The position numbers and the translations under genes were made by a program. The notes under the pieces are model-generated. The model searched no databases and was not told where the DNA came from. It worked only from the letters and a program-made list of their open reading frames with translations. 21,771 nt of DNA, from positions 1 to 21,771 of the IMG/VR virus record IMGVR_UViG_3300022220_000027. One strand, written 5' to 3'. Below are positions 1,923 through 21,726 of this stretch, one piece after another (within the stretch, counting starts at the first letter, position 1; the number at the start of each line of letters is the position of its first letter). Origin of the DNA: a virus.

Positions 1923-2153
1923 ATGAACGAACAGACGTACACACACGAAGACATCAACCGGGCAATGGACGAAGGCCGCGACGCTGAGCTTGCCCGCGTG
2001 GCTCCTCGCATCCTGGAACTGAAACGGGCACTGACGACGGCACTCGCCGAACGTGACGCAGCACTAGCACGTGCCGAGATGCTCCAAGCATCGTTGCGAG
2101 AGACCAAGGAACACCTCGACAGCCTCAAGGCATTGCTACGTCACAACAAGTAA
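1923..2153 (+). CDS. Small coiled-coil protein (76 aa)
   Basis: The ATG at 1923 is preferred over the upstream in-frame ATG at 1845. It follows the previous stop by 7 bases, and the extra residues from 1845 lie in the neighbouring gene's coding region. Residues 25-73 are almost wholly helical with heptad-like Leu/Ala spacing (LKRALTTALAERDAAL and SLRETKEHLDSLKALL), so a coiled coil is likely. There is no membrane segment. The last 18 bases overlap the 3' end of a minus-strand gene at 2136. The family is not recognised; short coiled-coil proteins of this kind are common in phage early regions. Confidence 0.7.
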   Translation: MNEQTYTHEDINRAMDEGRDAELARVAPRILELKRALTTALAERDAALARAEMLQASLRETKEHLDSLKALLRHNK

Positions 2154-2315
2154 CACGGTCAGCAACGTTCCGGTGACGATGGTCTGTACCAGTGACAGCA
2201 GCATGTAGATACGAGCGATTCGCCACTGGTGCTCTGTGACGCGCTCGAGCCGGGCTAACGCAACCGAGACCACGCCCAGCACTCGGGACAATGTCGTGCT
2301 TTTGCTTTCTGCCAC
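2136..2315 (-). CDS. Small membrane protein, holin- or envelope-like candidate (59 aa)
   Basis: This frame begins with GTG one base after the stop of the 106-residue gene (TGATGTG junction), so translation is probably coupled. It runs 59 codons to TAG. Residues 1-33 are amphipathic and charged (SRVLGV, LARLERVTEHQWRIAR). Residues 36-58 form one long hydrophobic segment (IYMLLSLVQTIV, then LLTVLLVV), a clear C-terminal membrane helix. Its end overlaps the opposing gene by 18 bases. A tail-anchored protein at the end of a late operon, after another membrane protein, fits a holin or other lysis/envelope role. No family signature supports that, so function is inference. Confidence 0.58.
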   Translation of the reverse strand: MAESKSTTLSRVLGVVSVALARLERVTEHQWRIARIYMLLSLVQTIVTGTLLTVLLVVT

Positions 2316-2316
2316 A

Positions 2317-2637
2317 TCACTCGTCGTGCCACAGGCTTGACGGTGGGCGATAGCCTGGCTGTATCACGCGGACAGCTTCCTCCAGAGCCAGGATGCGGCG
2401 CCGTGTGGCAAACGGTGGCAGCTTGACGCGCATCTCCAGACGCAGCCTATCTAGCGCGTCCTTGCGACGTGCCTCGATGCGCATCTCCAGTGCCTTCGCC
2501 TGTTCTCCGAAGAAAGGGTCCGGCCTCACAATAGGCGGTGCCAGGACGGGAATGCTCCCACCACCCACGAGGCCCATAAGCAGGGCCAGTACAATGCTGC
2601 GCCAGTCTGTCACGCGCTTGCCGTTCGTGTCGTTCAT
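2317..2637 (-). CDS. N-terminally anchored membrane protein with helical, charged tail (106 aa)
   Basis: Residues 1-13 are charged. Residues 14-38 (SIVLALLMGLVGGGSIPVLA followed by PPIV) form one membrane segment. The rest is a charged helix rich in Arg/Glu (ALEMRIEARRKDALDRL) that could be a coiled coil. The layout of a short cytoplasmic tip, one membrane helix and a helical soluble domain resembles inner-membrane lysis proteins such as i-spanins, but the Gly-rich break in the membrane helix is also holin-like. It is preceded by a 104-base gap after the tail genes and followed directly by a second small membrane protein. There is no cysteine, and no lipobox partner was found. Confidence 0.75.
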   Translation of the reverse strand: MNDTNGKRVTDWRSIVLALLMGLVGGGSIPVLAPPIVRPDPFFGEQAKALEMRIEARRKDALDRLRLEMRVKLPPFATRRRILALEEAVRVIQPGYRPPSSLWHDE

Positions 2638-2741: not shown

Positions 2742-3911
2742 TTAGAAATTCGTGAACGTCGTTTGCCATGATTCCGTATCGGACCCCTCGCTGTTCGTGG
2801 CCTGAATGTCGAACGTCACGGTTTCCTCTACCACTGCGGTGTAGTCAACTTTGCCGGAGCTCCCGACGATCGTCGCCCCGGCCGGTGCCGAAACAAAAGA
2901 CCACACCACGACGGGATCGCCCACGTCGAGCGACGGCGTGCGCGTGTAGGGCACGAACACGGTGCCGGCATCATCACCGAGCGCGTCGATCACCGGCGCC
3001 ACAACGCCGCCGGTGTCAACAATCGTCAACGCTTGCAGATTGCCAGCCATCGCCGCCGAGGTGTCCTCCACGGCCGCAGTGAATAGATTGCGGCGATCAA
3101 TCTGCTTCAGGTTCGAGTCGTTCTTCAGGTAAGCGTTGTTGTCGTCGTCGACCGCGAGCCCCTCCCGGAATCCGATATCCGCGTCGAAGTCAGCCGACGG
3201 AACGGCAACAAGCGCGGCGGTGTACGCAGCATGATAGGGATAGGTTGTGCCGTCGCGACGCGTGACATAGAGATAGGTCAGGCCACGCGCGAGCTTGTCA
3301 GGCCGTTCTTCGCTGGTCGTAAAATTGCCGAGCGCCAGGCTATCGAGAACCGTCAGCGTTGCCGGGTTGATTTTATGCAGCGTGATATCCCGCGTCGCGT
3401 CGCCCGGGTCGATACTGGTCAGCGCGAACAGACTGCCGGCGAGCGTCGTCAAGCCCAGCATATCCGTAAACACACCACCGGGCACCCCATCCTCTAATTG
3501 CAGCGAGTCCAGCAGGTCCCCATTGTTCGGATCACGCGCCTCAATCCATGTTTCCTTATTCAGGTTGATGCTCGTGCCAATGAACACCCGCTCGCCGACG
3601 TAGGCGCACGCGCGCGTGATTCCGGTGATGTTCTTATCCCACAGCAGATTAGCGCCGGTGTCCCACGCGGTGAGATCGTTGCCCGCCGTGCATATGAAAA
3701 ACGTGCCACTGGTAGACACCGCGTCAATGTCACCGGCCGCTGCCTTGCCCGTAGCAATCGGGCCGCGGCCGGTGTCGAGCGTATCGAGGTCAAACGTGTA
3801 GATGTTGCCGGCGTTGTCCATCGCCAGGAGCGAGCCCACGAAAAAGTCAGCAGGGAAACTGACGCCGACCCAGTTCCGGAACGGCCCCTCGTCGTAGATG
3901 ACGGTACTCAT
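2742..3911 (-). CDS. Probable tail-tip/receptor-binding protein: propeller-like repeats plus C-terminal Ig-like domain (389 aa)
   Basis: This is probably a virion adhesin at the distal end of the tail. Residues about 25-300 carry repeated beta strands of the PQQ/WD-like kind (LTAWDTGANLLWDKN, EARDPNNGDLLDSL, LHKINPATLTVLDSL), suggesting a beta-propeller. From about residue 305, PVIDALGDDAGT through ATNSEGSDTESWQ reads as an Ig-like or cadherin-like domain. The ATG shares a base with the preceding TAA. It is the last large gene of the structural operon, where host-specificity genes often lie. It has six GATC sites in 1.17 kb while its neighbours have almost none, suggesting recent acquisition. 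Receptor binding is inferred from position and fold. Confidence 0.75.
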   Translation of the reverse strand: MSTVIYDEGPFRNWVGVSFPADFFVGSLLAMDNAGNIYTFDLDTLDTGRGPIATGKAAAGDIDAVSTSGTFFICTAGNDLTAWDTGANLLWDKNITGITRACAYVGERVFIGTSINLNKETWIEARDPNNGDLLDSLQLEDGVPGGVFTDMLGLTTLAGSLFALTSIDPGDATRDITLHKINPATLTVLDSLALGNFTTSEERPDKLARGLTYLYVTRRDGTTYPYHAAYTAALVAVPSADFDADIGFREGLAVDDDNNAYLKNDSNLKQIDRRNLFTAAVEDTSAAMAGNLQALTIVDTGGVVAPVIDALGDDAGTVFVPYTRTPSLDVGDPVVVWSFVSAPAGATIVGSSGKVDYTAVVEETVTFDIQATNSEGSDTESWQTTFTNF

Positions 3912-8245: not shown

Positions 8246-8646
8246 GCGAACGCGGGCGCTGTGTCACCGTCCCAACGGATAGTGAGCTCGGCAGTGGTCT
8301 CGTCCTCATCACCACCCGAGGCGTCCACGCTGAACCCCTCCACAAAGCCTGTCCCGATGATGGTCGGGTTCGGGCTGTTGCCGTCGTTGAACGTGATCGT
8401 GATGGTCTCAGCGACGCCCATGACCGGCCGCACGCCATCGAACAAGACGGTCATGGACATCGTCTCGTAATTGATGAGAGTGCCTGGCTTGAACTGTCGC
8501 GCTCCCGTGGTAGCGAGGTTCGTCACGTCCTTTGCCGGCAACGTAGCACCGGCGAGCGGCGCGAACGTTAGTACCTCCGCCGTGTACGTCTGCGTGCCGA
8601 AGCCAATCGTTGCACCTTGGGAACTGATAGTTGTAGGTAGTGCCAT
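8242..8646 (-). CDS. Major tail (tail tube) protein (134 aa)
   Basis: A small beta-rich protein upstream of the chaperone pair and downstream of the tail terminator, the fixed place of the tail tube subunit. The N-terminal half (ISSQGATIGFGTQTYTAEVL, VTNLATTGARQFKPGTL) and the C-terminal FVEGFSVDASGGDEDETTAEL followed by a TIRWDG strand are typical of siphovirus tube proteins. It is shorter than lambda gpV because it lacks an added C-terminal Ig domain. The start is supported by GGAGAT about 8 bases upstream. The 60-base leader upstream separates it from the terminator gene and is one of the few real gaps in the operon. Confidence 0.88.
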   Translation of the reverse strand: MALPTTISSQGATIGFGTQTYTAEVLTFAPLAGATLPAKDVTNLATTGARQFKPGTLINYETMSMTVLFDGVRPVMGVAETITITFNDGNSPNPTIIGTGFVEGFSVDASGGDEDETTAELTIRWDGDTAPAFA

Positions 8647-8706
8647 CGTTCAAATCTCCAGAAGCGGACCCGCTGCGACGGGCGTATTGAGTAAAGAAGC
8701 CAAACG

Positions 8707-9129
8707 CTAGACAGCCGTGCCAGTCTCGCCGAACAGGAAAATGTAGTCTGCCGATATACGATACACACCAGGGTCACCGCCATCGCTCGGCGGCGTAAAG
8801 CCTACATCCTCGTCATCGAGATTGACACTGACAACATACTCCGCGCCCATCGTGGCGCCACGCCACCCGTCCAAGTTATCACGCAGAACGTCGGCCACAG
8901 CCTGGGCGCCATCCGGTGTGGCAGCGTAGGCATCTAGCTGCATCCGTGCCCGGACCATACCGCTCGGGCGTGAGATGCCCGGCGAACGCCTAGTGCTGAC
9001 ACGTGTCTGTATGACGTACGGCAGCACGGACCCTTGCGGAGCCTGGACAGGATAGATACGCGACGACACCAACGCCGTCACAGCCCCGATGCCTCCGAGG
9101 TATGTATAGATGGCGGTCTCGATACTCAT
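8707..9129 (-). CDS. Tail terminator/tail completion protein, DUF3168-like (140 aa)
   Basis: The family caps the finished tail tube and joins the tail to the head. Recognisable features are the N-terminal IETAIYTYLGGIGAVTALV, the SSRIYPVQAPQGSVLPYVIQ strand pair (usual form RIYP...AP....P.I), the ARMQLDAYA strand followed by an AVADVLRDNLDGW helix, and a C-terminal RISADYIFLF strand. Its length is normal for the family. It overlaps the gp10-like gene by ATGA and precedes the tail tube gene, matching the standard siphovirus order. Confidence 0.88.
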   Translation of the reverse strand: MSIETAIYTYLGGIGAVTALVSSRIYPVQAPQGSVLPYVIQTRVSTRRSPGISRPSGMVRARMQLDAYAATPDGAQAVADVLRDNLDGWRGATMGAEYVVSVNLDDEDVGFTPPSDGGDPGVYRISADYIFLFGETGTAV

Positions 9130-9572
9130 CGCCCCGCCTTCTTTTCAATGGCCCTGCCAATGTCGCGACCGATGAGAAGCACCTCAAGGCTGCGGTGCTC
9201 ATCCACGGCCGGCCGCATGTAGGGATAGGCCCGGACCTCACCGTGGCCATACTCCACCGCCGTCGGGTAGTAGTACTTATCAAACGGCCCGATGCCTAAC
9301 GCTTCACGTTCCGGAAAGGCAATACCGAGACGGATAAAGCCTCGGCGCGAAGACCCACGGATAGACGTCTCTTGAAACGCCTGGCGTAGCCTTCCGGTTC
9401 GCACGTTTACCTTGTCATTAGACAGGTTCTCGACAACGTAGCCACGCACACGCTTGGCACTCTTGCGTAAGGCTGACCGGACAATAGTCCGCTGGACTCG
9501 AGCCTCTAGCCGCTTTAATTCCTTCTCCAGTTCCGGCACGCCCAGGACTTTGATATCTACGGCTAGCGTCAT
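9126..9572 (-). CDS. HK97 gp10-like head-tail/neck protein (148 aa)
   Basis: Hallmarks of the HK97 gp10 family are present: an N-terminal VDIKVLGVPELEKELKRL helix, an ALRKSAKRVRGYV helix, VRTGRLRQAF (the R-TG-L-R/K motif) and a C-terminal stretch with EYGHGEVRAYPYMRPA (usual form E.G......PFMRPA). Such proteins act at the head-tail interface or in tail completion. Start and stop both overlap neighbours by 4 bases (ATGA), and the neighbours are the adaptor and the terminator, as expected. Confidence 0.9.
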   Translation of the reverse strand: MTLAVDIKVLGVPELEKELKRLEARVQRTIVRSALRKSAKRVRGYVVENLSNDKVNVRTGRLRQAFQETSIRGSSRRGFIRLGIAFPEREALGIGPFDKYYYPTAVEYGHGEVRAYPYMRPAVDEHRSLEVLLIGRDIGRAIEKKAGR

Positions 9573-9904
9573 GTGTCTTGTTCCTTGACCATGAGTTCGA
9601 GCAGCACGTTGCGATCGTTCGGGTTGATGGGTCCGCCCACTATGTTGAACACGCGGCTGTCACAGGCATCCACCACACGATAGCTGGAATCAACAGACGA
9701 TTGATACCGGATAACGATACGATGCGTGGTCTGCCCTTGCACCTGGGCGTTCTCGAAGTACTCACGGCCACGCAAGGGCTCGATGGAACCCCACACCGTG
9801 GCCGTTGTCGTCCACACATCCGTATAGCCACCGGACGCTGTGCGTGTTTGGTTTGTTTGCTGGAGATGCAAACGGCGCCGCAGTCTGCCTGCTCGAATCC
9901 TCAT
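9569..9904 (-). CDS. Head-tail adaptor/head closure protein, SPP1 gp16-like (111 aa)
   Basis: The sequence begins RIRAGRLRRRLHLQQ and continues with ASGGYTDVW, ATVWGSIEPLRGREYFENAQ and THRIVIRYQSSVDSSYRVV, the classic pattern of the phage head-tail joining family. The family forms a ring that closes the connector channel after DNA packaging. The length is normal. The gene overlaps both neighbours by 4 bases and sits directly after the connector gene. Confidence 0.92.
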   Translation of the reverse strand: MRIRAGRLRRRLHLQQTNQTRTASGGYTDVWTTTATVWGSIEPLRGREYFENAQVQGQTTHRIVIRYQSSVDSSYRVVDACDSRVFNIVGGPINPNDRNVLLELMVKEQDT

Positions 9905-10500
9905 GAAAGCTCGATGACCCGATACGGTGACAGCAACGCGTTCACACCCATAGGCAGCTCACTGACGATGGTACCGATGACGGTATGCTCTCGGTTCTCG
10001 TACCAGTTGCCAATAAGCAGCAGCATTGCCTGGCGTAGTGGAGCCGGCACGGCAGCTTGTAATCCGTACCCGGCAACGAACCGAATAGTCACGGCGTCGC
10101 GTATGTCACGGGTTCCAGGCCAAGACGAGTTATAGGCAAGGTCCACCCGAGGGCGCCACGTCTTGTCCGCGCTTAACGCATAGTTGCTCGCGTCGAACGT
10201 CTGCGTGTTGCCGTCCACATCCACGTAGCTAATCGAGGTAATGGACTGAATCGGAGGCAGTGGCAACCGGATGAAATCCACCACCGGGAACTCGTCTAGA
10301 AACAGGTCCCACGTGGCCGTTATCATCTGCCGCCCGAGATAACCGTCCCGCCCGTCCAGCACTTCCCGAGCTGCCGCAATAAGACCCTCGATGGCCGCGT
10401 CCTCGATGCCGTCGGTGCATTCGGACGCGCGGATGTGGTCTCGAGCCTCCACGAGGGACAGCGGCTCGACAGCTGGTGCAGTTACAAGCTCAAGTGACAT
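9901..10500 (-). CDS. Head-tail connector protein, phiE125 gp8/HK97 gp6-like (199 aa)
   Basis: The N-terminus (VTAPAVEPLSLVEARDHIRA) and the helix IEGLIAAAREVLDG, followed by GRQMITATWDLFLDEFP, are diagnostic of the phiE125 gp8 family of head-tail connectors that bind under the portal. The middle is a beta domain (IQSITSISYVDVDGNTQTF, VTIRFVAGYG) and the C-terminus a helix (PAPLRQAMLLLIGNWYENRE). It overlaps the preceding small gene by 11 bases. The connector module is normally close to the capsid gene; here about 6 kb of other genes separates them. Confidence 0.92.
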   Translation of the reverse strand: MSLELVTAPAVEPLSLVEARDHIRASECTDGIEDAAIEGLIAAAREVLDGRDGYLGRQMITATWDLFLDEFPVVDFIRLPLPPIQSITSISYVDVDGNTQTFDASNYALSADKTWRPRVDLAYNSSWPGTRDIRDAVTIRFVAGYGLQAAVPAPLRQAMLLLIGNWYENREHTVIGTIVSELPMGVNALLSPYRVIELS

Positions 10501-10792
10501 TAGACCGCCTCACCCATCGTTCGGAAGAAACCGCAGCCACTAAGGCGCCGCCGCCGGACCACTCGATGAAGTGGCGCCCTTCTTGGCTGTACGTGTAGTC
10601 GTAGTAGTAGACGCCTACACCGGAGTTGGTGACAAGCACGGGGCTGTCCGTGTTCACAGCCGTTACCGTGGCACCGTCCGGTGGGCGTACCTTGATTGTC
10701 ACCGTCGTCGGGTCAGCCGCCGCCCCGTTGATATCGGTAAACGTCACCGTGAACCGTTCCCGGTCATCAATGTCGCGTGCAATGGTGGGCAT
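10490..10792 (-). CDS. Small beta-sandwich virion-associated protein of unknown function (100 aa)
   Basis: A well placed AGGAG precedes the ATG by 5 bases and overlaps the stop of the fibre gene. The protein is beta-rich (RFTVTFTDINGAAADPTTV, TIKVRPPDGATV, GVYYYDYTYSQEGRHFIEWSG), looking like one Ig-like or carbohydrate-binding-like sandwich. Proteins of this type often lie just before the gp6-like connector in siphovirus operons. The exact role, connector accessory or capsid decoration, cannot be told. Confidence 0.75.
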   Translation of the reverse strand: MPTIARDIDDRERFTVTFTDINGAAADPTTVTIKVRPPDGATVTAVNTDSPVLVTNSGVGVYYYDYTYSQEGRHFIEWSGGGALVAAVSSERWVRRSNVT

Positions 10793-10800
10793 GGCTACTC

Positions 10801-12792
10801 CTAACTCATGACGGCGCCGCGAACGGCACAGGTTTCCACAGCGCCGCTTATGGTACCCGCGAAAGCGGCTTCGCCTGGCTGCAGCAATCCGGGGTTAAAC
10901 ACCACCACGGGTGACGCCGTGTCCGTCTCCGTGGCGCCAGTGACGGCCACGGTGAGAGTACCGAGGCTGATAGTGACGGCGAAGGCGGTGTCCGTCTCGG
11001 TCGCGCCAGTGACAACGACGACGTCACCTTGACCCACCGTGACAGCGGAGGCCGTGTCCGTCTCCGTCGCCCCGGTGACAGCGACCGTGAGGGCACCAAG
11101 AGAGACCGTGACAGCCGAGGCGGTGTCCGTCTCGGTAACTCCACCGGCGGAGACGGTGAGCGTACCGAGGGAGACGGTGACAGCAGCAGCGGTGTCCGTC
11201 TCGGTGACGGCACCAACAGCAACGAACTGCCCGCCCTGGTCCACCGTGACCGCCGAGGCGGTGTCCGTCTCCGTGGCACCAGTGACGGCGACGGTGAGAG
11301 TACCAAGACCCACCGTGACGCTGGCTGCCGTGTCGGTCTCGGTAACGGCACCAACAGCAACGAACTGCCCGCCCTGGTCCACCGTGACGCTGGCTGCGGT
11401 ATCGGTCTCGGTCGCCCCGGTGACGGAGACGGTAAGAGCCCCGAGACCTACCGTGACAGCCGACGCCGTGTCCGTCTCGGTCGCGCCAGTGACGGCCACG
11501 GTGAGGGTACCGAGGGAGACGGTGGCGCCGAAGGCCGTGTCCGTCTCCGTGGCGCCAGTGACGGCCACGGTGAGAGTACCGAGACCTACCGTGACAGCCG
11601 ACGCGGTGTCCGTTTCGGTAACGGCGCCGACGGAGACCGTGAGCGTACCGAGGGAGACGGTGGCGCCGAAGGCGGTATCGGTCTCACTCGCGCCAGTGAC
11701 GGCGATGTTCTGCCCGCCCTGGTCCACCGTGACAGCCGACGCGGTGTCCGTCTCACTGGCGCCGGTGACGGCGACGGTGAGCGTGCCGAGGGAGACGGTG
11801 GCAGCGAAGGCGGTGTCCGTCTCGGTGGCTACACCGGGGACCACATCGAGAGTGCCGAGACTAACCGTGACAGCCGACGCAGTGTCCGTCTCGGTAACGG
11901 CGCCGACGGAGACGGTGAGCGTACCGAGGGAGACCGTGACAGCAGCAGCCGTGTCCGTTTCCGTGGCGCCGGTGACGGCTATTGACTGGCCACCGCCGGC
12001 CACAGGCAACGAGTAAAGCGGTGGCCGCACACCGTAAACAAAGCCGAAAGGATTATCCCTCAGATAAGCACTCTCGCGGGCGTCGAGCACCCGATCCGCC
12101 CACATGCCTACATAAGCGATCCCACCGTCCCAGGTTTTTTCCTGCGCAGCCCACGACGGCGCGGCGAGACCGATCGCCAGATCCGCCGTCGTGGTCGGGA
12201 ATGTGGCAACGTCCGTTACCGAATCGGAAGTCTGATCAACGCCGTCGACGTAAATCGTGCCGGTGGTCCCGGATCTGGTGACGACGTAATCGCGCCATTC
12301 CTCCGCGAACTGGTTATCGGCATCGAACTGGTTGGCGTCGCCGTCAAACCGGCACACCACGCGATTAGCCGTCTCATAGACCGTATACCCGCCGCCGCCA
12401 CTGCCGGCGGTTGACTTGTCCAGGATGCGGATAAAATTCTCATTGTGTCCCGTCTCATCAAAATACGCCCGGAACGCCCATGTCGCACTGGACAAGCCCG
12501 ACAGGGACCAGGGGTCGCTCGCGGTGACGCTAGGCCAGTACCAGCCGCCGGTATCCACCGCGCCCGGCGACCAGTAAACAAAGGAATCTGTGTGCTTGTG
12601 CCGTTTCGGCTGGTTCTGAACGACCCCGGCGCGCGCGAGCATCGACCGCCCGGTAACAGCGTCGATGCAGTAGTTACCACCGAACAACCAGAAGCCAACC
12701 AGCCCTTCGGCCAGCGGATGCTGACGATCGACCGCGTACGGCCAGGCAGGCGCGAGGTTGGAATTATTGCTTCGCGTGCGAGAGGGGCGCAT
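10801..12792 (-). CDS. LamG-domain fibre protein with 16 tandem 23-residue repeats (663 aa)
   Basis: Residues about 22-255 form a LamG/concanavalin A-like domain: HPLAEGLVGFWLF at the start, ATWAFRAYFDE, WRDYVVTRSGTTGTIYVDGV, and the closing IAYVGMWADRVLDARESAYL helix typical of LamG_3 fibres. From about residue 268 to 645 there are 16 copies of a unit like TGATETDTASAVTVGLGTLTVAV, all with the ETDTA core. A short tail (LLQPGEAAF, ETCAVRGAVMS) ends it. It is likely a glycan-binding fibre or decoration protein. Because it lies between capsid and connector genes rather than after the tape measure, a head fibre is possible. The LamG half is rich in GATC sites and the repeat half has none, suggesting a fusion of two sources. 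Confidence 0.85.
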   Translation of the reverse strand: MRPSRTRSNNSNLAPAWPYAVDRQHPLAEGLVGFWLFGGNYCIDAVTGRSMLARAGVVQNQPKRHKHTDSFVYWSPGAVDTGGWYWPSVTASDPWSLSGLSSATWAFRAYFDETGHNENFIRILDKSTAGSGGGGYTVYETANRVVCRFDGDANQFDADNQFAEEWRDYVVTRSGTTGTIYVDGVDQTSDSVTDVATFPTTTADLAIGLAAPSWAAQEKTWDGGIAYVGMWADRVLDARESAYLRDNPFGFVYGVRPPLYSLPVAGGGQSIAVTGATETDTAAAVTVSLGTLTVSVGAVTETDTASAVTVSLGTLDVVPGVATETDTAFAATVSLGTLTVAVTGASETDTASAVTVDQGGQNIAVTGASETDTAFGATVSLGTLTVSVGAVTETDTASAVTVGLGTLTVAVTGATETDTAFGATVSLGTLTVAVTGATETDTASAVTVGLGALTVSVTGATETDTAASVTVDQGGQFVAVGAVTETDTAASVTVGLGTLTVAVTGATETDTASAVTVDQGGQFVAVGAVTETDTAAAVTVSLGTLTVSAGGVTETDTASAVTVSLGALTVAVTGATETDTASAVTVGQGDVVVVTGATETDTAFAVTISLGTLTVAVTGATETDTASPVVVFNPGLLQPGEAAFAGTISGAVETCAVRGAVMS
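10895..11979 (-). repeat. Tandem 69-bp direct repeats (about 16 copies) within the fibre gene
   Basis: The core (on the plus strand GTGTCCGTCTC and variants) recurs every 69 bases, with one 66-base interval near 11056. Each unit encodes 23 residues. Two flavours of linker alternate irregularly: LGTLTVAV/SVG and DQGGQFVAVG/NIAV. Copies are highly similar in DNA as well as protein, implying recent expansion or gene conversion. The repeats also create long open frames on the opposite strand, which I do not consider genes. Confidence 0.95.
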
Positions 12793-13786: not shown

Positions 13787-14249
13787 ATGCTGCGGTGAAT
13801 ACGTCCGCTCCGAACTGCGCTGTCACGTCGCTGCCGTTCGACGTCAGCACGAAGTCGTGGAACGTCAACGGAATCAGCGCCGCGTCCGCACTGGCGCCAG
13901 TGTCATCGTAGCAGACCACCATGCGTGTAATGCTCTCGCCGCCAGCCAGCGCCGTCCACGTGGTGTTCGGCAGCGTGTACGAATTGTCGTCCGCGCTGTC
14001 ATCCGGCGCCGGTGTGGCCGCAAGGTCTACGTCAGTGAGGTCCTTGTCCACGTAGCTGCCATCCGTCGGCCGCGCAAGCGTCCCAGCCAACAACGCGGCG
14101 ATGTCGTCGAACGCCTCGATGTCGTCATCGGCTTCCGTACCAGTGAAAAGAATCAGCGTAAGAACGCTGCCGGTTGGGTCGTTGGACTTCACGCGATCGT
14201 AGTATTCTTTCGCGCGGCCTTTGGCAATGTTGCATACTCCGTCAGCCAT
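13785..14249 (-). CDS. Probable virion structural protein (154 aa)
   Basis: The ATG has a strong GAGGAG about 8 bases upstream and overlaps the glycosyltransferase gene end by 8 bases. The N-terminus (VCNIAKGRAKEYYDRVKSN) is helical. The rest is beta-rich (SVLTLILFTGTEADDDI, ITRMVVCYDDTGASADAALI, FHDFVLTSNGSDVT). I recall similar proteins in siphovirus operons as structural or tail-fibre-associated proteins. No catalytic motif is seen. Unlike the next two genes it has only one GATC and belongs to the phage backbone in composition. Confidence 0.72.
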   Translation of the reverse strand: MADGVCNIAKGRAKEYYDRVKSNDPTGSVLTLILFTGTEADDDIEAFDDIAALLAGTLARPTDGSYVDKDLTDVDLAATPAPDDSADDNSYTLPNTTWTALAGGESITRMVVCYDDTGASADAALIPLTFHDFVLTSNGSDVTAQFGADVFTAA

Positions 14250-15084
14250 AATTCATGCTCCTCAATTCGGTCCCGTTGCTTGTAGGCATCGCGTGCCAGA
14301 TGTTATCCCACGCTGCCCCACTTTCCACCTCGTTCTCCGTGAACTGAGACCACGCAAGGTCTGTGCACCAAGCGGCTCGGTCTGGGTACTCAACCGGGAA
14401 GGCCACGTCATGAGTCGACACCGGCCACGCCATAGCACCCTCGTCCAGGGTAACAGTCGGCACACCGTAAAGAACAGCCTCAACGGCTGCCGTGGAATTG
14501 TGTGTCACAGCCATGCCCGCTCCAGACAAATCGCTCACCAGGGAATGTACACCGGCACGTTCGGCCTTGCCGGGGCAGAACGAACCCCGTGCCAAGGGAT
14601 GAGGCCGAAACATCACCCGATGACCAAGGGCCACCAACTCCTCAACCAGCGCCTCAAGCCACAGGTTGTACGGGAGACGCAAGCCAGCTAGGGCGGCGTC
14701 CCCTACACACTGCCCCAGTACCAGCGTATAGCCCCCAGATACGCGCCAGGGCTTCACACAATGGCCCCAGTGACGTTCCCACCGTTCGCCCCTGTCCTGA
14801 GCCCTCGGATACGTTCCGTGGCGTCCCAGGCCATTCCAGCCACACGAGGCCCATTCCAGCCGGTTAGGTAGGTGCCCGGCCTCCATGACCAGGACCGGTA
14901 GCCCGGCACGGCGTAGTTCAGCCCCAGCACGCCACCCCCAGCACACGGCAAAGTCACCCCCAGAGCCGGGCGCGCTTGTACGTAGTTCTACGTCTATGCC
15001 GTGCCGCTCGAGCCCGGCGGCCATCGCACCACACCAACGCTTGTGATGAGCCATACCCGGCGACATGACCACAGCGGCTCGCAT
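14242..15084 (-). CDS. GT-B-like glycosyltransferase, capsule-synthesis/glycerophosphotransferase-like (280 aa)
   Basis: The ATG at 15084 overlaps the methyltransferase stop (TGATG); a GTG one codon upstream is an alternative. The N-terminal half is a Rossmann-like domain (RAAVVMSPGMAHHKRWCGAM, FAVCWGW, LPVLVMEAGHLP). The C-terminal half has the signature VMFRPHPLA, then GAGMAVTHNSTAAVEAVLYG followed by VPTVTLDEG, seen in capsular polysaccharide and glycerophosphate-type transferases, where the His and the NST loop bind the nucleotide-sugar phosphates. It probably transfers a sugar or sugar-phosphate, with an unknown acceptor. With the neighbouring methyltransferase it may modify a virion surface protein or a host glycan. 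Family assignment is fair; the substrate is unknown. Confidence 0.78.
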   Translation of the reverse strand: MRAAVVMSPGMAHHKRWCGAMAAGLERHGIDVELRTSAPGSGGDFAVCWGWRAGAELRRAGLPVLVMEAGHLPNRLEWASCGWNGLGRHGTYPRAQDRGERWERHWGHCVKPWRVSGGYTLVLGQCVGDAALAGLRLPYNLWLEALVEELVALGHRVMFRPHPLARGSFCPGKAERAGVHSLVSDLSGAGMAVTHNSTAAVEAVLYGVPTVTLDEGAMAWPVSTHDVAFPVEYPDRAAWCTDLAWSQFTENEVESGAAWDNIWHAMPTSNGTELRSMNYG

Positions 15085-15656
15085 CACACATCCACCCGCC
15101 AGCCCTCGGACACATACTGACGCTGCTCACTGAGCCACGTAATCAAGGCCCCATCAAACCACCGGCGGAACATCCGGTCCCATTCGTCATACGCCCGAAT
15201 GTTGATATGGAGGTCTTCGCCAGACGGCAGACGCGAGGGACGATTGTTCGCTGTCAGCACAACATGGCGCCGCGCGACGCGGTGTAACTCACGGCACACA
15301 AGCTCATCATCTCCCGGTGGCAAATGTTCGATGACGTCAAACAGGCTAACGACGTCGAACGCATCATCCGGGAACGGCAAGTCATGGCCTTGGGCTTCGA
15401 CCACGGTGCTGCCGTCAATGAGGTCCGCCACCACCTCCGTACCCTTGTAACTTGTGAAGCCAAGCTCGCGAGCATGTATCAGCATCTCACCCCGGCCGCA
15501 CCCGACATCGAGATAGGTGCCCCGGCATGGAAGGTCGCGAAGGTCCTTGATGGCATCCACCATGCGACGGTCGCCCATTCTGTAGTTAGGCAGCTTGTAC
15601 GCTACGTCGTACTTGGCCTGCTCGGCAGCTCGCACCGTGTCCATGATGGTTGTCAC
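15084..15656 (-). CDS. Class I SAM-dependent methyltransferase (190 aa)
   Basis: I set the start at GTG 15656: GAGGG lies 6 bases upstream and the codon overlaps the previous TGA (GTGA). The longer frame to 15689 lacks such a site. Motif I is YLDVGCGRGEML, with the acidic residue of motif II in YKGTEVVADLI, and FDVVSLFDVIEHLPPGDDEL is the typical post-motif of small-molecule or sugar methyltransferases of the Methyltransf_11 type. There is no DNA-recognition domain and no NPPY or cytosine-methylase PC motif, so DNA modification is unlikely. Within this cassette it may methylate a glycan made or attached by its neighbours. Confidence 0.88.
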   Translation of the reverse strand: MTTIMDTVRAAEQAKYDVAYKLPNYRMGDRRMVDAIKDLRDLPCRGTYLDVGCGRGEMLIHARELGFTSYKGTEVVADLIDGSTVVEAQGHDLPFPDDAFDVVSLFDVIEHLPPGDDELVCRELHRVARRHVVLTANNRPSRLPSGEDLHINIRAYDEWDRMFRRWFDGALITWLSEQRQYVSEGWRVDV

Positions 15657-16060
15657 AAGATGCCCTCTAGTTGGTGCTTGGGGAAACAATGAAGCGCGCT
15701 GGTAGGCGTGCAGTTGATTACCTCCACGTCGGCGTCCGCGAGGTCTTCGACAGCACCCGCGAACGCCGCCACCCAGTTGTCGAAGTTACGTTGCTGCGGA
15801 TTGTTCAGCCCCTTGGGATGGTCACCGTGCCAATGGACGCGCCCCTCGGGCGAGGCCCCCATATCACAGCCCAACAACACAACACGGGAAGCACCCATCA
15901 GCATGACAAGGTTCAAAGCCTGAAACGTACTGTTGCAGCCCTGGTGTATGTACATCGGGTCAAAGGACAACCCCGGCCGGTCCCGGCTCTCGATGTGTTG
16001 CACACCGTTGCCGACATCATCCTGTGACACCTTGAGACCGGCAAACGTGGGACGTTCCAC
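15653..16060 (-). CDS. Rossmann-type protein, DUF115/MptE-like or sialyltransferase-like, lacking a proper start (135 aa from first GTG)
   Basis: The first canonical start in this frame is GTG 16060, but it cuts the domain: the nucleotide-binding loop lies upstream (see 16061-16336). The visible part has HQGCNSTFQALNLVMLMGAS, VVLLGCDMGASPEG and VHWHGDHPKGLNN, then a C-terminal DVEVINCTPTSALHCFPK. This is the pattern of phage proteins related to DUF115/MptE-like and Cst-type glycosyltransferase folds (G-PSL loop, LLG-D strand, N-SAL-CFP end). These are predicted nucleotide-sugar or nucleotide-diphosphate enzymes. The stop overlaps the methyltransferase GTG. As written the gene would be inactive unless reached by frameshifting from the preceding gene or the window has a one-base error. 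Confidence 0.72.
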   Translation of the reverse strand: MERPTFAGLKVSQDDVGNGVQHIESRDRPGLSFDPMYIHQGCNSTFQALNLVMLMGASRVVLLGCDMGASPEGRVHWHGDHPKGLNNPQQRNFDNWVAAFAGAVEDLADADVEVINCTPTSALHCFPKHQLEGIL

Positions 16061-21314: not shown

Positions 21315-21726
21315 GTTCCCACGGCTTCCGTGTTTGGACTGGTTTCTTCTTCGACTTGTCGTAGGTTGTGGACTGAGATAGGCGCATCTTCACACTCAGC
21401 GTAGCCAAGGCCCTTGACTCACGTTCCTGCATCTTGAGCAGCTTGTCGTATTCGTGAATGTCAAACTCGTCCGATGTCTCGGCAGCCTGTATCAGACTCG
21501 CGACCCGGCGTGCCTGGACGATGTGCCGGCAGTAGGCTGCCAACAACGGGAGGGTCTCTACCTGGAACCAGTCGGCTGGCAACCGGTTGATGATAAGCAG
21601 CCATTCAGCTGCCTGCTCTTTCGTCAAATCAGCTGGCGGCTTGGCTCGTGGAGCACTTGCCATACCGCCGGCGTTGATGGCTGCTATCTCAAGCGACGCG
21701 GCTGACCGTCTTCCTCGCTTGTTCAT
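21304..21726 (-). CDS. terS: Terminase small subunit, P27-like (140 aa)
   Basis: The small subunit recognises phage DNA and loads the motor. The basic N-terminus MNKRGRRSAASLEIAA, the segment APRAKPPADLTKEQAAEWLL and the helix LPLLAAYCRHIVQARRVASL fit the P27-type terminase small subunit family. So do YDKLLKMQERESRALATLSVKMRLSQST (two pieces of one helical region) and the position directly before terL. The length is normal for the family. AGGA lies 8 bases before the ATG in an AT-rich leader, so this may be the first gene of the late transcript, although the window ends 45 bases upstream. Confidence 0.88.
   Translation of the reverse strand: MNKRGRRSAASLEIAAINAGGMASAPRAKPPADLTKEQAAEWLLIINRLPADWFQVETLPLLAAYCRHIVQARRVASLIQAAETSDEFDIHEYDKLLKMQERESRALATLSVKMRLSQSTTYDKSKKKPVQTRKPWELEG

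Follow-up and report, generated by a model that had tools for sequence, protein, structure and literature searches.

A probable gene for a small tail-anchored membrane protein at the late-operon end of a phage contig

The window analyzed here, positions 1 to 21,771 of the IMG/VR virus record IMGVR_UViG_3300022220_000027, belongs to a phage from an environmental sample. IMGVR_UViG_3300022413_000026 (G001, also called locus L013; 35,686 bases) is a longer contig of the same phage, and the two differ by one mismatch, at position 11812, over two compared stretches that jointly cover the window. The minus strand carries the structural genes, which run from the small terminase (start at 21726) through the large terminase, portal, protease, capsid, connectors and tape measure to the genes of a 106-aa and a 59-aa protein. 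The plus strand, as found in G001, carries the replication genes and a 7-deazaguanine set: QueE (an assignment that rests on a radical-SAM match and the place of the gene), QueD, QueC, GTP cyclohydrolase, a queuine-transferase-like DpdA, the clamp and DNA polymerase A. The late (structural) and early (replication) blocks converge tail to tail at the 59-aa gene and a 76-aa ORF. Table 1 lists the features of this junction.

Other parts of the two contigs showed further features. The 7-deazaguanine set adjoins the clamp and DNA polymerase A on the plus strand of G001 (8538-12124), where the N-terminal part of the GTP cyclohydrolase is weakly phosphoribosyltransferase-like, and the contig joins a Queuovirinae-like replication block to an HK97-type head module. 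The minus strand of the window encodes a 663-aa protein (10801-12792) with a Laminin_G_3 domain and, after it, numerous TVAVTGATETDTASAVTV-like repeats. Between the capsid and the downstream structural genes of the same strand (14242-16060) stand a putative glycosyltransferase gene (weak DUF6716 match, below cut-off) and methyltransferase and alpha-2,3-sialyltransferase-like genes, which could take part in sugar decoration of the virion or the envelope.

Table 1. Features at the convergence of the late and early blocks (positions in the window).
Feature	Position	Strand	Description and basis
76-aa ORF, last of the early (replication) block	1923..2153	+	Coiled-coil appearance; convergent to the 59-aa gene; codon score 0.296; weak match to phrog_5050 (E 0.012)
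Tail-to-tail overlap (18 bases) between the 59-aa gene and the 76-aa ORF	2136..2153		ORF coordinates
59-aa tail-anchored membrane protein, probable gene	2136..2315	-	GTG start; last gene of the late operon; ORF and translation, codon statistics, hydrophobicity with control, helix model
One-base spacer from the 106-aa stop to the 59-aa GTG	2316..2316	-	TGA-T-GTG; would fit translational coupling
106-aa membrane protein	2317..2637	-	N-terminal hydrophobic segment (about residues 15-33), then a charged, probably helical domain; no family match, no cysteine
389-aa protein	2742..3911	-	Upstream of the 106-aa/59-aa pair (104-base gap); putative tail-end role from position; no family at E 1 or better

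A preliminary description of this DNA had proposed a GTG-started frame of 59 residues that begins one base past the gene of the 106-residue protein. The frame was confirmed on the minus strand from 2315 to 2136, with a TAG stop at 2138-2136 and no internal stop. The 106-aa gene ends at 2317 and the context of the two genes reads ...GAG TGA T GTG GCA...; judged by eye, the start context of the GTG is weak. The charged N-terminus and the single C-terminal hydrophobic helix that had been ascribed to the protein were also found. Residues 1-37 have a net charge of +3, residues 40-58 form one strong hydrophobic segment (mean Kyte-Doolittle value of 2.15) and AlphaFold2, run on the single sequence, modeled one helix from residue 4 to residue 58 (mean pLDDT 87.8, pTM 0.47). 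A fold search of BFVD with this model gave no match, as expected of a single helix. The predicted model of the 106-aa protein had low confidence (pLDDT 62.8).

The window has 151 ORFs of at least 50 aa and, therefore, the length of the 59-aa frame is no evidence that it is a gene. Its codon score, +0.134 per codon, was reached by 4.6% of 216 spurious open stretches, while 15% of 136 real 59-codon pieces from the same phage scored at or below it. The codon usage is coding-like, though not strongly. The G+C content by codon position was 0.58/0.42/0.72, compared to 0.63/0.46/0.72 in 33 training genes. The score of the neighboring 106-aa gene, 0.287, was reached by 0.5% of the 216 spurious stretches. 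As a control for hydrophobicity we used ORFs of 50-75 aa nested in ORFs of at least 250 aa at other loci, which are presumed to be spurious, and 12 of these 3038 had a C-terminal hydrophobic segment with a value of at least 2.1. Among the 104 ORFs of 50-75 aa from the same phage, two had any segment reaching at least 2.0: one would be the 59-aa frame, and the other is an ORF on the minus strand of L013 (5846-6070). A scan of positions 1250-2800 showed no promoters or terminators.

Homologue searches returned little beyond the phage itself. The sole other copy of the 59-aa sequence found was that of G001, which is identical. Searches with this protein identified only the same phage among viral contigs, nothing among genome contigs and, by tblastn of annotated phages, in which the BLAST low-complexity filter may mask the hydrophobic half, nothing at E 10. 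A match with an E of 0.004 in a set of 50 whole records overlaps an M15 endolysin gene in another frame and was rejected as chance; that an out-of-frame stretch can reach such a value shows the weakness of matches of this kind. Nothing below E 1 was obtained with phmmer among 24,283 ORFs of other loci, where the top match was a tail-anchored protein of Alteromonas phage PB15 (E 1.5). Searches for diverged copies of the 106-aa protein also returned nothing except the same phage, and its profile searches gave no family with an E value of 1 or lower. As single queries, the 389-aa, 278-aa and polymerase proteins likewise returned only the same phage, and the tape measure as a single query found eight loci, one of them the same phage. 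Alignments of the polymerase and of the tape measure, when used as queries, identified at least 80 loci each.

Comparison of the 59-aa protein to the profiles of holins, XhlA and phrog_6420 gave no match and no family was assigned. The only Pfam line was HD_3 (E 0.11, below cut-off). The best profile match was to phrog_30209, a family of unknown function with 102 positions, which aligned to residues 6-58 over 53 of the 102 positions (E 0.0014); a second, weaker one was to phrog_30902 (E 0.063). When ten natural hydrophobic decoys were compared to PHROG, three had matches and none was below E 0.24. The match to phrog_30209 may be real. This family, compared as a profile alone, differs from the 59-aa protein in that it extends about 45 positions further at the C-terminus, and its only match over 50 other records was the coiled coil of the PB15 protein.

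These data bear on whether the 59-aa frame could be open by chance and untranslated. Such an explanation is in agreement with a codon score in the lower 15% of the real pieces, with the weak start context and with the finding of no diverged relative in the databases searched. However, the codon score is above that of 95% of the spurious stretches, a comparable C-terminal anchor is rare among the presumed-spurious ORFs, the frame is joined to the 106-aa gene by the TGA-T-GTG junction and the E value of its best PHROG match was not approached by any decoy. We consider a chance frame quite improbable. The codon usage, the hydrophobic C-terminus and the stop-start junction with a strongly coding neighbor indicate that the 59-aa frame is probably a real, coupled gene. 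The proposal that two consecutive small membrane proteins are encoded at the end of the operon, here the late one, is supported, and the 59-aa protein, the second of the two, probably exists.

The polymerase block shows synteny with those of Microcystis phage Me-ZS1, Stenotrophomonas phage ytsc_ply2008005c (ytsc) and Pseudomonas phage Baskent_P4_1 (Baskent), none of which has an annotated minus-strand gene of the 59-aa sort at the junction. On the plus strand of the window there is a 62-aa ORF (1727-1915) with a hydrophobic N-terminus and two cysteines; by eye, a small plus-strand two-cysteine membrane protein occupies the matching position in these three phages and in VPv64 and VpKK5. Among the best 80 polymerase loci listed, 76 had a downstream ORF of at least 170 aa and, by a mechanical count, 46 had the first of these ORFs on the opposite strand. 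Small junction genes with family support were found in at least four of these 46 loci: L033 and L044 (phrog_6420), L039 (spanin) and L032 (holin). The family searches were run on the junction ORFs of L033, L039, L044, L046 and L108 and on one of L032, a locus that was missed by the hydrophobicity sieve and added from separate searches; further cases may exist. Small anchored junction ORFs were also seen by eye at L041, L046 and L108.

The genes found at this place in other phages are of several kinds. At L039 the junction encodes an o-spanin lipoprotein (PF23793 over cut-off, phrog_456) that overlaps an N-anchored partner with a weak match to phrog_214 (E 0.016). At L032 a 109-aa protein whose N-terminal part has a moderately hydrophobic segment precedes a GTA-type holin (PF11351 over cut-off, phrog_3427). 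A 157-aa protein beside this holin resembles M15 peptidases in a motif; as neither Pfam nor PHROG gave a match at E 0.01, it was not counted as one. In phage PB15, which has a related tape measure, the late operon ends with a phrog_937 'hemolysin' (1.8e-16), an annotated response regulator, an M15 peptidase and a GTA-type holin. The phrog_6420 proteins, tail-anchored and of unknown function, were found repeatedly next to the polymerase block, in tail-to-tail orientation, in Shewanella phage S0112, L033 and L044.

Three of these families were compared to the 59-aa protein. The XhlA-like 'hemolysin' of PB15 (30928-31233), which stands near the endolysin and the holin, is likewise small, tail-anchored and encoded at the end of the late operon, but it has 101 residues with a long coiled coil, and the 59-aa protein showed no match to phrog_937 or phrog_1193 at E 1. 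The score of the alignment between both proteins was reached by 1 of 158 hydrophobic decoys; it was the best of nine targets tried, and after nine comparisons the resemblance is not significant. The phrog_6420 proteins, such as that of S0112 (L028 8016-8282), share with the 59-aa protein the C-terminal anchor and the place, tail to tail with DNA polymerase A. Membership was rejected: these proteins have 84-88 residues, and 151 of 158 decoys aligned as well or better. The GTA_holin_3TM proteins (PF11351/phrog_3427) of PB15 and L032 are encoded at the end of the late operon, as is the 59-aa protein, but they are longer and include an N-terminal helical part, and the 59-aa protein gave no match to the profile; membership in this family was rejected too. 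By analogy, the junction suits a lysis gene without proving one.

The preliminary description had stated that the window includes no endolysin, which was borne out by the profiles used, and had suggested a search for one elsewhere in the genome. The same profiles detected none in the 35.7 kb of G001 by hmmscan and whole-record scans (the latter with Peptidase_M15_3 and M15_4 only, while other endolysin families were covered by hmmscan of most G001 genes). A whole-record scan with phrog_3427 detected no GTA-type holin in the 35.7-kb contig, nor did hmmscan identify any other holin family. In Me-ZS1, ytsc and Baskent, an annotated endolysin and holin are located just upstream of the small terminase with one hypothetical gene between, and profiles confirmed an M15 domain in all three phages. 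Past the start of the small terminase gene, the window continues for 45 bases and G001 for 47, and at its other end G001 starts 259 bases past the 3' end of the primase gene. The lysis pair of the three relatives stands where both contigs end, and the lack of an endolysin is probably owed to the contig ends. Given the same gene order, precisely the segment that encodes the lysis pair would be missing from the contigs, and this probably explains the absent endolysin better than an unusual mode of lysis.

The 59-aa protein has features expected of a holin, such as at least one transmembrane segment, a small size and a gene that is late as judged from its strand and neighbors. It could then be the main holin, with a single N-in/C-out anchor and the 106-aa protein as partner or antiholin. 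This possibility is consistent with the one strong anchor, the finding of no GTA-type or other holin in the 35.7-kb contig and the GTA-type holin at the same junction in L032. On the other hand, holins are usually, not universally, adjoined by an endolysin, as they are in PB15, Me-ZS1, ytsc and Baskent, and none was detected next to the 59-aa gene in the window or G001. In addition, the scores of the 59-aa protein against the holins of PB15, L032, ytsc and Me-ZS1 were reached by as many as 38, 13, 8 and 7 of 158 decoys, respectively. We regard a role as main holin as unlikely.

The pair had also been proposed to be spanin-like. The N-terminal anchor and probably helical domain of the 106-aa protein have the layout of an inner-membrane spanin, and a spanin pair is found at the same junction in L039. 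In two-component spanins, the gene of an outer-membrane lipoprotein with a lipobox overlaps the i-spanin gene, lies within it or stands close by. PMC6139136 calls a periplasmic cysteine ubiquitous in two-component spanins and describes unimolecular spanins as a lipoprotein signal and a C-terminal TMD in one protein. There is no cysteine in the 106-aa or the 59-aa sequence. The scan for lipoprotein ORFs, which covered the window and the left 13.95 kb of the longer contig, gave four raw matches, none of them credible: each lay antisense to a clear gene or in another frame of one. In its relaxed form the filter recovered all three junction controls (L039, L028 and L046); a stricter one showed no match in the known sequence and recovered only one of two control loci. 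A unimolecular spanin was rejected as well: the 59-aa protein has a C-terminal anchor only, with no signal peptide and no lipobox, and the 106-aa protein an N-terminal anchor only. These results did not uphold the spanin-like reading, and we consider it highly unlikely that the 59-aa protein is a spanin or forms a spanin pair together with the 106-aa protein. It is also very unlikely that the two belong to a new family of two-part devices for envelope disruption, neither holin nor spanin as known, in which a helical periplasmic protein with an N-terminal anchor and a coupled tail anchor made of a single helix would act without a lipoprotein.

The reading that we tentatively prefer, at somewhat less than an even chance, is that the 59-aa protein is an accessory lysis or envelope factor, XhlA/holin-like. 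XhlA is a tail-anchored partner of a holin. The 59-aa protein would be translated late, probably by ribosomes that complete the 106-aa gene and then reinitiate at the GTG, a single base later. It would form one long helix with an amphipathic, basic N-terminal half in the cytoplasm and a C-terminal anchor of about 20 residues; this N-in/C-out topology is expected from the positive-inside rule. Late in infection, it would act on the inner membrane together with the N-anchored 106-aa protein. The genes of the true endolysin and perhaps of the main holin would stand just outside the contig, upstream of the small terminase. The earlier proposal that the pair are lysis candidates stands in part: it gains from the analogy to the lysis genes at the same junction in L039, L032 and PB15, while its spanin-like version does not hold. 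Me-ZS1, ytsc and Baskent have the endolysin-holin pair at the opposite end of the late block and, therefore, this phage may well keep its holin there, which weakens the lysis reading. The fact that profile searches with the 59-aa and 106-aa proteins matched none of the lysis families also counts against it. So do the failure to detect an endolysin or a known holin next to the gene or in G001 and the occurrence at this place, in three relatives, of phrog_6420 proteins rather than known lysis proteins.

The 59-aa protein could instead be a late envelope protein with no part in lysis, which would block superinfection or otherwise remodel the inner membrane (exclusion or immunity). The small anchored phrog_6420 proteins at the same place in S0112, L033 and L044 point in this direction, as does the position of the annotated lysis pair in the three relatives, at the far end of the late block. 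However, no family match to any exclusion protein was obtained, and exclusion genes are usually expressed early, whereas the 59-aa gene is in the late block. We consider this role rather unlikely, though a serious alternative to an accessory lysis or envelope factor. The likelihoods given for the roles of the 59-aa protein are judgements and were not computed.

The 59-aa protein is a probably real tail-anchored late phage protein, as yet an orphan, of an ordinary, common kind. At this locus, the pair is probably real, it lacks the features of spanins that were looked for, and the absence of an endolysin is probably an effect of the contig ends rather than a biological oddity. Gene callers easily overlook small anchored proteins encoded at phage operon ends, some of which act in lysis or exclusion.
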